From a virus, in IMG/VR virus record IMGVR_UViG_3300046524_000373, positions 1 through 39,616 of that record: a DNA stretch of 39,616 nucleotides. One strand, 5' to 3'. A program made the translations under genes and the position numbers. Shown here one piece after another: positions 3,343-37,989 of this stretch. Numbering within the stretch: the first letter of the stretch is position 1; each line of letters opens with the position of its first letter. The notes under the pieces are model-generated. The model saw only the letters and a list, made by a program, of their open reading frames with translations. It did no database searches and had not been told where the DNA came from.

Positions 3343-3924
3343 CTAGGCTGCATGCGCGGCGGGTGTCGCCACGGCTGCCAGATGGGTTATGGACTCGGCC
3401 ACCATGGAGTAGATCTCCACGTCGCTGCCGTACACCGTAAAACACTTGGTGCGCGGCTTTCTGACGCCGATGCTCATGATGGTGGTAATGCCAGCGCGGG
3501 TTTTGCTGCGGTGGATTGCCAAGTTGATCGGTTGCTCGAAGCCCATATCGAGACTGAGAGCGCCGCCGGTTTGCACTAGGTCGAATACCTGCTGCTTGTG
3601 TTCGGTCTCGAACGAGCCGTAGCGGCGGTCTGCGTGCGGCAGAGAGGATGGATCGGTTGGGTTGGTTGGTCCGTTAACGATCTCCTCAATGAAGTCCGCA
3701 AGCTTGAGGTGCATATTCTTGGTGTTGGCCAGGGTCAGCGTGTGGCGTTCGCTGCCCAGCTCAACGGTGAAGTGCGTGTCGACTTTGCGGCGCTCGACGT
3801 TCAGGCGGAAGGCCAGGGCCTCACGTTGCGTTTCGGCGCGCAAGAGGTGGTTGAAGGTTTCCGTCAGGCTGACTTGTGCCTTGAGCAGGGTCAGGGTGCG
3901 TTTGTCGAATTTGTACTTTTTCAT
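3343..3924 (-). CDS. Phage protein of unknown function
   Basis: A 193-aa product with a charged N terminus (KKYKFDKRTLTLLKAQ), an alternating beta-like middle (VDTHFTVELGSERHTLTLANTKN) and a C-terminal half containing TTIMSIGVRKPRT. No family recognised. The ATG overlaps the upstream stop (3921-3924, ATGA). As a promoter-proximal gene of the leftward operon it would be among the first proteins made after derepression. Confidence 0.7.
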   Translation of the reverse strand: MKKYKFDKRTLTLLKAQVSLTETFNHLLRAETQREALAFRLNVERRKVDTHFTVELGSERHTLTLANTKNMHLKLADFIEEIVNGPTNPTDPSSLPHADRRYGSFETEHKQQVFDLVQTGGALSLDMGFEQPINLAIHRSKTRAGITTIMSIGVRKPRTKCFTVYGSDVEIYSMVAESITHLAAVATPAAHAA

Positions 3925-4097
3925 GCCGCATGCCCTCCACCATTTGGGTCAAATGGGACAGGCGCTGAGCGCTGTTTCAGTCTGGGTTTGGACGCGATGA
4001 AGGCGCAGCCGCAGTCTTGTGCCAGTCGGCGAATTTCGAAGATGCGGGAGGGGTTAGCAGCGGCCGGGTGGACGTGCAGGGTGGCTGTGGTGTGCAT
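3921..4097 (-). CDS. First gene of leftward operon, small protein
   Basis: A 58-aa product starting at ATG 4097-4095 (HTTATLHVHPAAANPSRI), ending with GGGHAA. An upstream TTG at 4133 is in frame but lies inside the -10 element of the leftward promoter, so the ATG is preferred. It contains two cysteines (QDCGCAF) but no complete zinc motif. Function unknown. Confidence 0.55.
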   Translation of the reverse strand: MHTTATLHVHPAAANPSRIFEIRRLAQDCGCAFIASKPRLKQRSAPVPFDPNGGGHAA

Positions 4098-4132
4098 GAT
4101 GTTGTCTCGCTCTGTGGTGGAAGAGTAAGACA

Positions 4133-4161
4133 AATATCAACCGATGGTTGCGTAATGTCAA
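4133..4161 (-). promoter_or_regulatory. Leftward early promoter (PL)
   Basis: Read on the minus strand, TTGACA (complement of 4156-4161) is a perfect -35, followed by a 17-nt spacer and GATATT (complement of 4133-4138) as -10, matching TATAAT at four of six positions. Transcription would start near 4126, about 30 nt before the first gene of the leftward operon. Two palindromic operator sites overlap the -35 and -10, so a bound repressor would block polymerase. Confidence 0.75.
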
Positions 4162-4172
4162 CTGTCGGTTGT
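4137..4172. promoter_or_regulatory. Paired repressor operators OL1/OL2
   Basis: Two 15-bp sites fit TCAAC-N5-GTTGA: TCAACCGATGGTTGC (4137-4151) and TCAACTGTCGGTTGT (4158-4172). Their starts are 21 bp apart, two helical turns, placing both on the same DNA face. They cover the -10/spacer and the -35 of the leftward promoter. The same motif recurs at the repressor gene (6151-6165, 6207-6221), which supports control by the S24 repressor. Confidence 0.75.
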
Positions 4173-4280
4173 TTTTACCGCGCTGTTGGCCGTTAGGTAG
4201 ACTGCATAATGGCTTTTGGATAGCATCCCACCCTTTTGTGGGCGGTTGCGCAACGTTTAGTAAAATTACAGGAGTTTTTG

Positions 4281-5405
4281 ATGGCAATTGAAAAGAGACT
4301 TGCGGCCGAATATAGGAAAAAGCTCCGTAACGAGAAAATATCCATAATCTTCAAAAGGTCACTAATTACTGTCTATGAAAAAGTGTCTTGGATGAAGTTC
4401 GGGCCTGTATTTCTTGCTGTCAGCGTTATGCTAATTTTCTTCATAGCTTTTATTCTTTGGCTGAAAATCTCAGTTAACGTTGACTTCCCATTGCTCAAGT
4501 TCGCTAACGTTAAACAGCTTGAATATATGGGGCAAATTGGTGATTTTTTCGGAGGTGTCCTAAATCCGCTTCTGAGTTTTATGGCTTTAATTGCAGTGTT
4601 ATTCACCATCAAAATGCAAAGTAGAGAGCTTAAGGAGGCGAAGGAAGAAACCAGAATTGCTAACCGAATCCAAGATAAGCAAACCGCCGTGTTTGAGCGG
4701 CAGAATTTTGAATCGGTCCTTTTTCGGCTTCTCGATGTACATAGCCGTCTTGCTGAGAGACTGCGAACTAACTATCGTCTTGGCGAAGGTGATAGATTTA
4801 AGGCCATCGTAGATAGTGTTTTAGATTTGGTGAATGAAAATGAGCCGATCGAAGCCAGAGGCTTTAATTTTGAGGAGTTTGGCACATGGCAAGCGTATAA
4901 GGTCGAGCGAGAGAGATCAAATATTGAAGGCTTTGGGAAGCTGCTAGAGGCGGTTAAGATTTCGGTAAGTCGAGAAAATAAAATTCTACTCTCTCAGTAT
5001 TTCAGGAATATGTATCAAATACTCAAGCTGATAGATAATTTCAAGCTTGAAATTTACGAAGAAGGCTCAGATAAAGGCAAGAAATCTAAGCGTCAGCTTA
5101 GAATGGAGTACTTTCAGCGGAGACAGTACTGTAATATTCTCAGGGCGCAAATATCAGATGATGAATTGAAGGTTTTATATCTGAACTGTCTGAGCGCTAC
5201 AGGATTTGGCCTAAAGTATTACGTAGAGAAATACTCTTTGTTGAAGCATATGGATAGAACTGACTTTTTAAAGGTGTCCTGGGATTGGCATGAGGTTTAT
5301 CAGAGTACTGCTTATGAAGACTATGAGCTGATTACTGATATTCATATACGGGATTTTCAGAAGGCCCGAAGTGTTTCGAACTTCAGTCATATGTTCCCTC
5401 ACTGA
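4281..5405 (+). CDS. AbiC-like putative abortive-infection membrane protein
   Basis: The start is ATG 4281, with AGGAG 6 nt upstream; the in-frame start at 4236 has no such site. The 374-aa protein has a charged N terminus, a TM helix at about residues 41-62, and the motif GQIGDFFGGVLNPLLSF leading into a second TM near 92-112. A coiled-coil stretch with KEAKEETRIANRIQDKQ and a long soluble C-terminal domain follow. This layout and the GDFFGG-NP motif are typical of the putative phage abortive infection family (Pfam putAbiC). It is AT-richer than the phage backbone and lies between the two repressor-controlled promoters, transcribed away from PL: a typical moron position. Exclusion of other phages is inference from the family. 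Confidence 0.75.
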   Translation: MAIEKRLAAEYRKKLRNEKISIIFKRSLITVYEKVSWMKFGPVFLAVSVMLIFFIAFILWLKISVNVDFPLLKFANVKQLEYMGQIGDFFGGVLNPLLSFMALIAVLFTIKMQSRELKEAKEETRIANRIQDKQTAVFERQNFESVLFRLLDVHSRLAERLRTNYRLGEGDRFKAIVDSVLDLVNENEPIEARGFNFEEFGTWQAYKVERERSNIEGFGKLLEAVKISVSRENKILLSQYFRNMYQILKLIDNFKLEIYEEGSDKGKKSKRQLRMEYFQRRQYCNILRAQISDDELKVLYLNCLSATGFGLKYYVEKYSLLKHMDRTDFLKVSWDWHEVYQSTAYEDYELITDIHIRDFQKARSVSNFSHMFPH

Positions 5406-5432
5406 TGTAAAAGTGAGGTTTGCCAGCTCTGC

Positions 5433-6158
5433 TTACTCAGGAATGAAAGACCCCACTACTTTCCCACAGATGTGTGTTTCCTCCGTAATATCAATGATTG
5501 GATATTGCGGATTGATAGGCTTCAAGAATTGCCTGCCTGCGTCTGCTACCAATACCTTGAATGTTGCTTCGTTGGTTCGTGGAACCCTAGCGATCACTCG
5601 ATCGCCTGTCTTGGTTTCAGCTTCTGGATCTACAAAAATAATGCAGCCCGTTGGATAGCTGCGTCCTGGTCCGGGGTTTGTCATGGAGTCGCCAAGCACT
5701 TTCAGCGCATACCCGCTTTCACTAATCGGTACGGGGCAAGATAGCCATGACTCCCCGTCATGCTGCTCGAAGTTTGACTCACACCATGCGCCAGCCTGAA
5801 CCCACGAAATCAACGGGACATTTCCAAAGCGTTGACTTACTTCTCGGACATTACTCTCGCCTGCTGCAACGAACTGGCGAACATTGCTGTCCCCTGTTTG
5901 CTCTTTAGGTAGCACACCGTACTCCAGCCACTCCCTCCGCACCTTCAGCCATGAGCACAGCACAACCATGCTGTCTGCCTCAGGTATAGATTCACCATTC
6001 AGCCATTTACTTATTGCCTGAGTACTTTTTTCAGACCCAACCTTCACCAAATGCTTATGGATATCCACGCCGCGCCCCCGGGTGCGTACACCGGCATCGT
6101 CGAGTGCTTCGTGAAGGCGCGCCGTGAAAGCTGCCCGTAGCTCATTCTTATCAACCAT
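5433..6158 (-). CDS. prtR: PrtR/CI-type S24 self-cleaving repressor
   Basis: The 241-aa protein has an N-terminal HTH (about residues 1-75, with STQAISKWLNGESIP) and a C-terminal LexA/S24 peptidase domain. The predicted cleavage site is Ala122-Gly123 (SWVQAGAW), the nucleophile Ser158 lies in LGDSM, and the catalytic Lys is about 201 in NEATFKVL. RecA filaments would stimulate self-cleavage, lifting repression of PL and PR. An operator (6151-6165) covers the start codon, so the repressor probably controls its own synthesis. Length and layout match PrtR and phage CI proteins. The gene converges on the abi gene with only 27 bp between stops. Confidence 0.9.
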   Translation of the reverse strand: MVDKNELRAAFTARLHEALDDAGVRTRGRGVDIHKHLVKVGSEKSTQAISKWLNGESIPEADSMVVLCSWLKVRREWLEYGVLPKEQTGDSNVRQFVAAGESNVREVSQRFGNVPLISWVQAGAWCESNFEQHDGESWLSCPVPISESGYALKVLGDSMTNPGPGRSYPTGCIIFVDPEAETKTGDRVIARVPRTNEATFKVLVADAGRQFLKPINPQYPIIDITEETHICGKVVGSFIPE

Positions 6159-6221
6159 GAGTTGATACTCTCATAGGGGTTGCGCAATAGTCAGTTGATG
6201 TTAATATCAACTGCGAGTTGA
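6151..6221. promoter_or_regulatory. Repressor/Cro control region with operators OR
   Basis: Perfect 15-bp sites TCAACCATGAGTTGA (6151-6165, over the repressor start codon) and TCAACTGCGAGTTGA (6207-6221, immediately before the Cro-like gene) match the two PL operators. A degenerate third copy, GCAATAGTCAGTTGA, can be read at 6184-6198. The spacing differs from the left region, which is usual for divergent repressor/Cro switches. Confidence 0.8.
6180..6207 (+). promoter_or_regulatory. Rightward early promoter (PR)
   Basis: TTGCGC (6180-6185) and TAATAT (6202-6207), 16 nt apart, form a sigma-70-like promoter pointing to the Cro-like gene at 6237. The operator at 6207-6221 overlaps the last base of the -10 and the predicted start site, so occupancy would block transcription. 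Confidence 0.6.
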
Positions 6222-6236
6222 TAAATGGAGGTTGCC

Positions 6237-6497
6237 ATGTTGGACCCCGCAGATTTTCCGAACGCCATCGCGTTCGCATTTGAAGCAGTAGGCGGCATCG
6301 GAGCCGCCGCCAAGGTATGTGACAGGAGTTACCAAGCACTCAATAAATGGCGCTTGGCTGCCAGCCTTCCACGCACCGATTACACCGGTGAAACCCACTA
6401 CGCAAAACTTTTAGCGACCGCTGCAGAGCAAAAGGGCAACGCGTTTGACGCTGCTTGGCTGCTCAACGCATCGGCCCCGCAGAAAGCTGCGGCGTAG
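6237..6497 (+). CDS. Cro-like regulator (YdaS-type)
   Basis: An 86-aa protein with a compact HTH: AIAFAFEAVGGIGAAAKVC, then YQALNKWR, then SLPRTDY, the usual helix pattern of YdaS/Cro proteins. ATG 6237 is chosen because GGAGG (6227-6231) lies 5 nt upstream; the ATG at 6225 includes that ribosome site and is less likely. Divergent from the S24 repressor across shared operators, it should be the opposing switch protein. Confidence 0.8.
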   Translation: MLDPADFPNAIAFAFEAVGGIGAAAKVCDRSYQALNKWRLAASLPRTDYTGETHYAKLLATAAEQKGNAFDAAWLLNASAPQKAAA

Positions 6498-34121: not shown

Positions 34122-35606
34122 ATGCGAGCAAGAGATAAACGTTTCAAGGAAAGTATTGAACTTGCCCCAAGTGACTGGTTATTTTGGAAGGATGAGGATT
34201 TTAATAGATGGAGGCGACAGCACGATTTTCCCAGGATTGTAGAGTTTCTTTTTGATAGCTTGCCTTATTTTTCTTTATGGCTCTCTGAACAGGTGGGGTT
34301 GACTGAGGAGGATTTGTTATTTCATGGCCCATCTCGATTTATAAGATTTTACGGCGAAGAGGTAACTTATATTGAGCGCAATGTGGGGGGTTCATTGTTT
34401 CAAGAGATTCCCGCTCGTAAAATTGTTAGATATGAATTTATAGAGAGGGGCGATGCTGATAAGGTAGATCGATTTAGAGTGCTGAGGCAGGTTCGCTTTG
34501 TAAGTTATATTGACTGGGCATTCTCTAGGAGGGAGTGGGCTTTCCCTAATAAAGTAAAAGACATCAGAGATATAGCTCGATTCTTAACTCCTTCAGGAAG
34601 ATCGTGTCAGACCTCAGACTTTTTGAATAGTCATTCTAGTATACAGTTCAATATACCATTGTTCATGCCTAGTGTTTCCATAGAATCGTTGAGGTCAAAA
34701 CATCTGGTAGGGGCCCCACCGATGCTTGAATTGCTTAAGCTTGGTGGAGGCGGAGTAGAAGTAGCAAATGGTCTGATTGGAGAAAAAAATCTTGAGTTCA
34801 CAAATATCGACAATCTGACACTTATCTCTCCAATCATAACAAGCTTTCAAAGTGTCGCATTCTCCACTTTGCGAAATTTTAAGATAGTTGGTTCAATTCA
34901 TGCGATGACTTTTCATCAGTGCTCGGTTGAAATTACCGTGAGCAACGGTGGTTTGTTTTCTTGTAGATTTGAGTATGGTGATCAAAAAATTGACCTGAAA
35001 AATTCGAAGTTGGATAGGTCTTCGATAAAGTCGCGAAGGCTTGGCCTGAAGCTGTCTGATACAGAGGTTTTAGATTGCTGCTTTAAATACTCTGATCTTT
35101 TCACCTTTTCGTCCGCAGAAAAGAAAAATTTCCACAAGTCTGCCAAGATGATTTTTTCACATTTAGGGTACCCTGACTTGGCTGGCAAACATTTTTTATT
35201 AGAGAGGAAGTCAGAGAGGGTAAATAAGTGGGAGGTGTTTTCAGATATTAAGCGAGGCGTGGGAATAAGAAACAGGCTTCTAGCACTGCTTGGCTTTTTC
35301 TGGATGCTTCTACAGGAGTTGTATTGGGGGTATGGGGAAAAGCCTTTTAATGTAATATTGTCCTCGCTATCTCTTATTTTTACTGTTTCGATTTATGGGT
35401 ATTGCGGACAATACTCTAGCACCTATGGAGACGTGTTAGCGTCTGTAATGTACTCCTTTCAGTCGTATACCAATATTTCGATAATGGAAATTAAGCAAGC
35501 TAGCAAAGGGCTTAAATTGACTGGGGCCGTTATGTCATTTTTTGGCTTGATGTCAGTAGGTCTACTGGTGGCTTCGCTGTCGTCTAAATCGAAAAACTAT
35601 AACTAA
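34122..35606 (+). CDS. Large accessory protein with ion-channel-like C terminus
   Basis: The 494-aa protein has a soluble N-terminal region of about 380 residues. A middle portion (about 210-330) suggests short pentapeptide-like or beta-helical turns. The membrane end is GYGEKP at 403-408, a TM near 409-427, a re-entrant-like MYSFQSYTNI near 443-452 and a TM near 466-485. The YGE-(R/K)-P lead and two TMs around a pore loop are typical of pentapeptide/Ion_trans_2 proteins, but the TxGYG selectivity filter is replaced by QSYTN. AGGTGAGG lies 5 nt before the ATG. The gene is AT-rich beside the phage and is probably horizontally gained. Role unknown; defence is possible. Confidence 0.65.
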   Translation: MRARDKRFKESIELAPSDWLFWKDEDFNRWRRQHDFPRIVEFLFDSLPYFSLWLSEQVGLTEEDLLFHGPSRFIRFYGEEVTYIERNVGGSLFQEIPARKIVRYEFIERGDADKVDRFRVLRQVRFVSYIDWAFSRREWAFPNKVKDIRDIARFLTPSGRSCQTSDFLNSHSSIQFNIPLFMPSVSIESLRSKHLVGAPPMLELLKLGGGGVEVANGLIGEKNLEFTNIDNLTLISPIITSFQSVAFSTLRNFKIVGSIHAMTFHQCSVEITVSNGGLFSCRFEYGDQKIDLKNSKLDRSSIKSRRLGLKLSDTEVLDCCFKYSDLFTFSSAEKKNFHKSAKMIFSHLGYPDLAGKHFLLERKSERVNKWEVFSDIKRGVGIRNRLLALLGFFWMLLQELYWGYGEKPFNVILSSLSLIFTVSIYGYCGQYSSTYGDVLASVMYSFQSYTNISIMEIKQASKGLKLTGAVMSFFGLMSVGLLVASLSSKSKNYN

Positions 35607-35675
35607 TCATTTTTGAGGCGTAAGGAGTTTTATCTAGTTGGAATAAAAACCAGAATTCCTATATCTGGCTCAATC

Positions 35676-36557
35676 TTACGCTTCATTGTAAGGAGAAAGC
35701 TCAAGCTGGAAGGATTGATTAGCAGGAGTCGCCTGAAGGATTTGTGCGTGGGGGTAGAGACGATTGATTGCTAGTGATAAAGACGCTCGTTGGTCAAGCG
35801 GCATGCGGCAGCCAAAGACAACTCCTGTAAGCTCTTTAGCTCCAAACTTTACGTCTTCATGTGGGGCGTTTTTATTTCGTCCGTCACCTGAAAATATCCT
35901 CCACTCATTTTCATGTTTCCAAGCGTCAGATTTTGTATAAGTCAAAGTATTTATTCGTTTTGCTTGGTCGAAATTAATTAGTCCTGACAAGAAATCCGAA
36001 AGCTCGTCTTCTTCAAAGAGCATGGGTATGTCTTTCATATAAGACATTGGCTTGGCTGTTTTGTATGGGCTGTCTGCTCCAGGTTCATCTTGAAAGCGGA
36101 GGACTACACCTTTGTTGCTGTCGGCATAATATGCCCACATAAGTTGGTTGATGGGCGAATCAGTCAAGCATAAGATTTTAGACTTGGAGAGATGGTCTCT
36201 TGTGTCGCGATACGTTTGATGAATATTTTTGTCTATAGCTGCAAATGATTTCCGAATCCCATCTTCCATATTGCGCATAAAGACCTTTTTAGGTACGTCT
36301 TTAAGGTATGGTCTCATGAGGTCAAATGCAGCTGACATTTTGTTTTCAGGATGTCCCCGGAGCTCACCCATATGTACCTTCCAAAGTTTGTCTAGCGTAG
36401 CGCGAAGTACTTTGTCACGATCAAAGTCGATACGAAGGTCAAACTGGATGTCGTAGGGGTCGTTCAAGGTCGCAGGTGTACTCCAACGAAGGGTCTGGTT
36501 TTCAAGCACAATGTTAGCTGTGCTGTAGGGCATATACTTATAGAAGGCTTCAGGCAT
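35676..36557 (-). CDS. DUF2971 protein
   Basis: The 293-aa protein matches DUF2971: FYKYMP at the start, STPATLNDPYD near residues 29-39, LCLTDSPINQLMWAYYAD near 134-151 followed by KGVVLRF, and KHENEWRIFSGDG near 220. The family has no settled biochemical role and is often found in variable or defence-linked loci. It converges with the channel-like gene (69 bp between stops) and is also AT-rich, suggesting joint acquisition. Confidence 0.75.
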   Translation of the reverse strand: MPEAFYKYMPYSTANIVLENQTLRWSTPATLNDPYDIQFDLRIDFDRDKVLRATLDKLWKVHMGELRGHPENKMSAAFDLMRPYLKDVPKKVFMRNMEDGIRKSFAAIDKNIHQTYRDTRDHLSKSKILCLTDSPINQLMWAYYADSNKGVVLRFQDEPGADSPYKTAKPMSYMKDIPMLFEEDELSDFLSGLINFDQAKRINTLTYTKSDAWKHENEWRIFSGDGRNKNAPHEDVKFGAKELTGVVFGCRMPLDQRASLSLAINRLYPHAQILQATPANQSFQLELSPYNEA

Positions 36558-37472: not shown

Positions 37473-37757
37473 TTACCACTTCGAACGAGGACGTTGCCGT
37501 GTGTGGAATACGCCAAGGATCTGCAGTCGATCACCCCGCACTCTATACGGGATCAGATAGGACCAGTTGGGGACTGCCCATTCGCGAGTATGTTTCACCC
37601 GACCTTCGCGTCCTATAGAAGGAAACTGAGCCAGCCTGTCGACGCTGGCGAAAATGGCATCCGAGAAGTCGTCAGCGGCTTTTGGATTTTCGAGAGCGAT
37701 ATAATTCGCTTCGTCTTCCAGATTTTTGAGTGCTTTTTCAAGCCACTCAACCCGCAT
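37473..37757 (-). CDS. RelE/ParE-family toxin
   Basis: The 94-aa protein has the ParE pattern: VEWLEKALKNLEDEANYIA at the start, AADDFSDAIFASVDRLAQFP, GREGRVKHTREWAV and a YLIPYRV strand, ending with ILGVFHTRQRP. ParE toxins poison gyrase and RelE toxins cleave mRNA at ribosomes; the target here is unknown. ATG 37757, with GGAG 5 nt upstream, overlaps the antitoxin by 11 bp. Confidence 0.85.
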   Translation of the reverse strand: MRVEWLEKALKNLEDEANYIALENPKAADDFSDAIFASVDRLAQFPSIGREGRVKHTREWAVPNWSYLIPYRVRGDRLQILGVFHTRQRPRSKW

Positions 37758-37989
37758 TCTTGCTCCAGCGCCTAGCGCGCATGGCTGCCACTTGGTCATC
37801 AGTGGCGAATTTGCCTTCGTCGGCGTTTTTTATCGCCAGCTCGATCTGAGCGGTTAGCGTTTTTTCGTGCTCGATGTAGTCGCGAAGAACATCCATTGCT
37901 AGGTAGCTCGCTGTCTGGCCGTTGGTTTTGGCCAAGTCGGCGAGAGAGTTGGACAGGTCTTCCGGCAGGTTTAGGGATATCCCAGTCAT
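37747..37989 (-). CDS. Ribbon-helix-helix antitoxin
   Basis: An 80-aa CopG/RHH protein: N-terminal strand ISLNLPEDL, helices around TASYLAMDVLRDYIEHE, and a C-terminal toxin-binding tail with VAAMRARRW. It would bind the ParE-type toxin and repress the operon. It precedes and overlaps the toxin gene, the usual order. Confidence 0.85.
   Translation of the reverse strand: MTGISLNLPEDLSNSLADLAKTNGQTASYLAMDVLRDYIEHEKTLTAQIELAIKNADEGKFATDDQVAAMRARRWSKNAG

Follow-up and report, generated by a model that had tools for sequence, protein, structure and literature searches.

The question raised by this locus is what a gene lying between the PL promoter and the cI repressor gene of a temperate phage does, and how it fits into the switch that surrounds it. 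The window analysed here is the whole stretch of 39,616 bases from one viral record. The abiC-like gene starts 107 bp past OL and ends 27 bp from the end of the cI open reading frame, divergent from PL and tail-to-tail with cI. A sequence-only reading had placed an AT-rich gene for a two-transmembrane protein between PL and the repressor gene, transcribed away from PL; its frame and strand were recovered exactly, with AGGAG before the ATG, and its stated place, with PL on one side and the cI 3' end on the other, was confirmed (Table 1). Operator-like matches numbered 30 in the window versus 8.5 expected. GC content around the gene was 0.39-0.46 versus about 0.6 over most of the window.

Table 1. 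Features of the switch region and the abiC-like gene (positions in the window)
Feature	Position	Strand	Remarks
193-aa PL-operon gene, phrog_15582	3343-3924	-	conserved left flank of slot
70-aa gene, phrog_35204, first in PL operon	3924-4133	-	conserved left flank of slot
PL, -35 TTGACA, spacing 17, -10 GATATT	4161-4133	-	nested within OL
OL operator 1, ATCAACCGATGGTTGCG	4136-4152		operator search
OL operator 2, GTCAACTGTCGGTTGTT	4157-4173		left boundary of exchange slot
Direct-repeat element, ATAATGGCTTTTGGATAGCAT	4206-4226	+	common to unrelated cargos; probable cargo promoter/regulator site
Ribosome binding site AGGAG, 5' of abiC-like ATG	4270-4274	+	from sequence
abiC-like gene	4281-5405	+	374 aa; 2 TM segments and cytosolic helical domain, putAbiC aa 236-328
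7-bp inverted repeat CCTCACT...AGTGAGG, end of abiC-like gene	5397-5418		possible weak terminator
cI-type repressor (S24/LexA type, S24 peptidase)	5433-6158	-	stop codon is right boundary of slot
OR operators	6150-6166, 6183-6199, 6206-6222		similar to OL sites
cro-like gene	6225-6497	+	weak carph-isopro and repressor-family matches

The argument that genes at this position are usually expressed in the lysogen rests on rexAB-type genes of the cI operon. A Rex-type gene shares strand and operon with cI, whereas the abiC-like gene lies on the plus strand and cI on the minus strand, so that it cannot belong to the cI operon. A canonical sigma-70 promoter was looked for upstream of the gene and none was found. 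The inverted repeat at the end of the gene gave folding z values of -0.8 and -1.2, which are not significant. On the plus strand the OL operator pair (4138-4175) forms a strong, terminator-like hairpin followed by a T run (z -4.6), which may insulate the cargo or may be a by-product of two inverted repeats. AbiC-like relatives were collected with the family alignment at 35 viral loci, 15 of which had a CI-like repressor nearby. Rex-like order, with the AbiC-like gene following the repressor on the same strand, was seen in 5 of those 15; several of the other ten were slots already counted in the survey below. At two loci (L178 and L181) the CI-like repressor gene and an AbiC-like gene directly 3' of it share a strand. 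Among cellular genomes, putAbiC was detected in 16 of 199 from Pseudomonas and in 0 of 14 controls.

The protein itself bore out the description of two transmembrane segments with a GDFFGG-NP motif. Its hydrophobic segments span aa 43-61 and aa 92-110, GDFFGG lies at aa 87, and both GDFFGG (27/27) and N95-P96 were invariant across a 27-sequence alignment, 26 members of which had at least two hydrophobic segments (the short L049 frame has one). The invariant residues of the cytosolic helical region, read from a 10-sequence alignment, were Y.RN.YQ..K. The description as AbiC-like was supported by the HMM search: Pfam putAbiC (PF16872) matched aa 236-328 with E 1.2e-19 and 71.1 bits versus a cut-off of 22. 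The match to PADLOC AbiC (PDLC02343), over aa 43-311, was weak, with E 6.2e-6 and a modest 24 bits. The PHROGs match was phrog_8999, a family of unknown function (E 6e-29). An AlphaFold2 model built from 27 sequences (pLDDT 77.7, pTM 0.60) predicted two membrane helices, the second continuing as an 85-residue helix, and then a helical cytosolic domain. Foldseek returned zero matches to this model at E<=0.001, VIA-align gave Z values of at most 5.7 among helical bundles, and a profile search of PDB sequences reached a best E of 0.22; we claim no fold.

We then surveyed, in related phages, the DNA between OL operator 2 and the stop codon of cI, here called the slot. Viral loci were gathered through the repressor (the best 80 of 171 relatives), through the 193-aa neighbour (51 loci) and through the AbiC-like protein (5 loci), and genome loci through the repressor (32, of which 30 were in Pseudomonas). 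Inclusion required a cI of at least 70% identity and the presence of the 70-aa left gene. Left out were 9 viral-record loci without the left gene, 9 with cI below 70%, 10 without a cI match, and 3 of the 32 genome loci; slots identical to viral-record slots were counted once. The sample consisted of 82 distinct viral-record slots including that of the window, to which named Pseudomonas genomes added 24 more. Of the 106 distinct slots, 100 were filled and 6 were empty, the latter being only 64-78 bp long and still keeping OL and PL. A PL-like promoter was present in 100 of the 106. When proteins were linked by BLAST and by slot sharing, the filled slots resolved into 31 unrelated cargo types, with AbiC-like cargo in 10 of the 100. 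The main cargo was on the plus strand in 77 of 78 filled viral-record slots; the exception, L124, carries a minus-strand 1114-aa protein with a PIN-TPR-GreABC domain. Like the abiC-like gene, the slots were AT-rich, with a mean GC of 0.41 (0.36-0.44) against 0.59 for the left flank and 0.51 for cI of the related phages.

To place the limits of the slot, we compared 81 pairs that resemble each other in cI but differ in cargo. On the left, similarity ceased where OL operator 2 ends (median 0; quartiles -12, +5). On the right, it reached 2 bp past the end of the cI coding sequence (quartiles 1, 3). Cargo type was shared by 10/10 pairs at cI identity of at least 95%, by 1/7 at 90-95%, 2/35 at 85-90%, 20/443 at 80-85% and 198/4455 below 80%. 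Since cargo sharing was lost so quickly with cI divergence, exchange is fast relative to that divergence. Like a prophage hotspot, the slot combines variable cargo at one site with conserved flanking genes: it is an exchange site with sharp boundaries and swapped cargo in a family of Pseudomonas temperate phages.

To read what the slots carry, PADLOC and Pfam were run on 40 cargo proteins drawn from 29 types, the window protein representing a thirtieth type; the type of L156 was outside the scan. A PADLOC match at E<=1e-3 was obtained for 16 of the 30 scanned types, a raw rate, uncorrected for that of ordinary genes in the same phages, and known or candidate defence systems, as in a defence hotspot, are thus among the cargo. 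The matching types account for 56 of the 100 filled slots, read by type from one or two representatives each. Septu occupied 12 slots, AbiC-like 10, KAP NTPase/PDC-S20 6 and PDC-S21 5; SIR2/PDC-S25, CBASS (Cap15 and cyclase), PDC-M34B-like and DRT5 occupied 3 each, and PDC-S31, PDC-S28 and Lamassu 2 each. AriB, DzbB-like, PDC-S49, PDC-M36A and NsnB were found in one slot each. A NACHT type (7 slots) was recognised by Pfam only. At the same threshold PADLOC gave no match for 14 of the 30 scanned types, and the slot may also carry non-defence genes. Seven recurrent types were without a PADLOC match in their representatives, including a 584-603 aa type (6 slots), a DUF2806 type (6) and a 338-aa type (5). 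Recurrent PADLOC-negative groups were L002, L012, L023, L028, L155 and L166; L034, L059, L074, L147 and L158; and L033, L122, L151 and L167. We regard such recurrent cargos as candidate new defence genes. Guilt by association is a strong argument for a defence role of slot cargo, but not a proof.

Other features were noted elsewhere in the window. A second AT-rich island (34122-36557) holds a plus-strand gene for a 494-aa protein, for which Pfam, PADLOC, PHROGs and NCBIfam gave no match, and a minus-strand gene for a DUF2971/PDC-S31 protein (E 1e-37). DUF2971/PDC-S31 is likewise the cargo of the OL slot in L046 and L154; both accessory places thus draw similar cargo. Near the right end of the window a ParE-type toxin and an upstream ribbon-helix-helix-like partner lie on the minus strand (37473-37989).

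Many unrelated cargos share a sequence element upstream of their genes. Unsupervised fitting on 70 non-redundant regions after OL (L004 had no anchor and was left out) yielded TGATGGC-N4-TGATAKC, a direct repeat with period 11, with a log-likelihood of 259 versus 101-105 in four shuffled sets. Matches of at least 11 bits numbered 57 on the cargo strand in 19.5 kb versus 10 on the opposite strand; outside the slot regions there were 61 in 1.68 Mb on both strands. The copy in the window scored 19.6 bits (16.9 with its own cargo type left out), and the next best site there 11.7. In leave-one-type-out scoring at p<=0.01 the element was found in 45 of 91 regions, representing 18 of 31 types, versus 14 of 91 on the reverse strand, and among held-out genome regions unlike the training set 8 of 20 scored at least 9 bits (p<0.05). 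In roughly half of the regions it was weak or missing. The element is therefore real but not universal. Its distance from OL was mostly about -1 to 85 bp among phages.

Several identities of the element were considered and set aside. It is unlike the CI operator ATCAAC-N5-GTTGAT. The sigma-54 pattern GG-N10-GC fits some sites, including that of the window, and was not favoured: among 45 sites +16 was G in 47% and +17 was C in 64%, and the conserved host sites end in TC. The reading as a palindromic operator was rejected on the log-likelihood of a symmetric model (155 versus 234 for the free model); a direct repeat offset by +11 gave a better fit. Compared with a sigma-70 core promoter, the element offered several weak registers, none decisive. 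The strict pattern was counted 38 times, in 33 of the 99 Pseudomonas genomes searched, and its reversed control 0 times. These sites lay upstream of one orthologous gene in at least 15 of the loci examined and upstream of another in 7, so that independent host sites are far fewer than 38. We take the two downstream genes to be cheV and smrA. Across many Pseudomonas species, one orthologous host gene has the element some 223-277 bp upstream, within a block that is strongly conserved (L214, L223, L226, L231-L234 and others). Because the element also precedes host genes in Pseudomonas genomes, there are hints that its binder is a host factor.

Since related prophages often carry known defence systems in the same slot, the abiC-like gene is very probably an immune gene like their cargo, and its earlier nomination as a defence candidate is strengthened. 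We consider it likely, from slot context and protein architecture, that the gene is interchangeable prophage immune cargo in a fixed slot and probably acts at the membrane by abortive infection. Phages would swap the DNA enclosed by the last OL operator and the stop codon of cI while retaining PL/OL and cI. The cargo would be read away from PL toward cI from a promoter of its own, marked by the repeat element in about half of the phages, and would presumably be made in the lysogen. We infer that the AbiC-like protein would be held in the membrane by its two transmembrane helices, that its cytosolic helical domain may sense the infecting phage, and that it would then halt infection at the membrane or soon after. 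The two transmembrane segments and the prophage location would also suit superinfection exclusion by an entry block, in which the protein would interfere with DNA injection or modify a receptor and the cell would not arrest. We find this rather unlikely, in that the cytosolic helical region, with invariant residues of its own, makes up most of the protein, and many of the systems found in the same slot (Septu, CBASS, DRT, Lamassu, SIR2) come from families known to work inside the cell.

Two further readings concern the switch. The abiC-like promoter could be repressed or activated by OL-bound CI, coupling defence to lysogeny; the slot always begins at OL, which in the window ends 107 bp upstream of the start codon. 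The loose spacing between OL and the element and the dissimilarity of the element to the operator argue against direct CI control, and OL and PL are kept in empty slots, so that OL serves PL. The suggestion of a repressor-tuned promoter thus found no support, and we hold CI control to be improbable. The cargo could instead chiefly tune the switch, with convergent transcription or antisense RNA toward cI lowering the repressor and the protein being secondary. Its convergent order in nearly all filled viral-record slots fits this, as do nine cargo open reading frames that overlap the cI end by 11-15 nt; the 31 unrelated types of protein cargo with frames kept open, and the six phages without cargo, make it highly improbable. 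Interchangeable immune cargo is the reading that we carry forward.

P2-like phages and P4-like satellites carry anti-phage hotspots (Rousset et al. 2022, PMC9122126), which resemble the slot in having a fixed site in a mobile element and swapped anti-phage cargo; they belong to another phage family and another site, whereas the slot runs from OL to the stop codon of cI and has a shared upstream element. BstA of prophage BTP1 is a defence gene in the immunity region adjoining cI, as is the position of the abiC-like gene, but is one gene family, described as lying downstream of cI (PMC8585504), whereas the slot is divergent from PL, opposed to cI and holds 31 types. RexAB of lambda and RexABpp of P. 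putida P1 are membrane-acting defences near the repressor (PMC12894663), as the AbiC-like protein is presumed to be; RexABpp is reported to form one operon with the repressor, whereas the abiC-like gene is on the opposite strand and encodes an unrelated protein. Lactococcal AbiC is reported to limit major capsid protein (review PMC9952470). The AbiC-like protein shares the putAbiC domain far above the cut-off, and its relation to lactococcal AbiC runs through the 24-bit PADLOC match. As a kind, such loci are already established by the P2/P4 hotspots, BstA and RexAB-type genes (PMC9122126, PMC8585504, PMC12894663). Searches confined to open-access papers brought up no description of the slot, its orientation, its operator and stop-codon boundaries or the shared element, which is weak evidence of absence.

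The slot gives a precise position at which the defence systems of a widespread Pseudomonas prophage family can be read off, and its recurrent cargo types without a PADLOC match make it a discovery resource. We tentatively raise the possibility, doubtful as it is, that the swapped-in immune systems share one regulator binding the repeat, a host factor with sites at conserved Pseudomonas genes. If so, the phage family would use a signal borrowed from the host to govern its interchangeable immune systems as one regulon. With the shared element, common control of swapped-in immune genes becomes testable, and such control bears on how prophages deploy defence without self-harm at induction.
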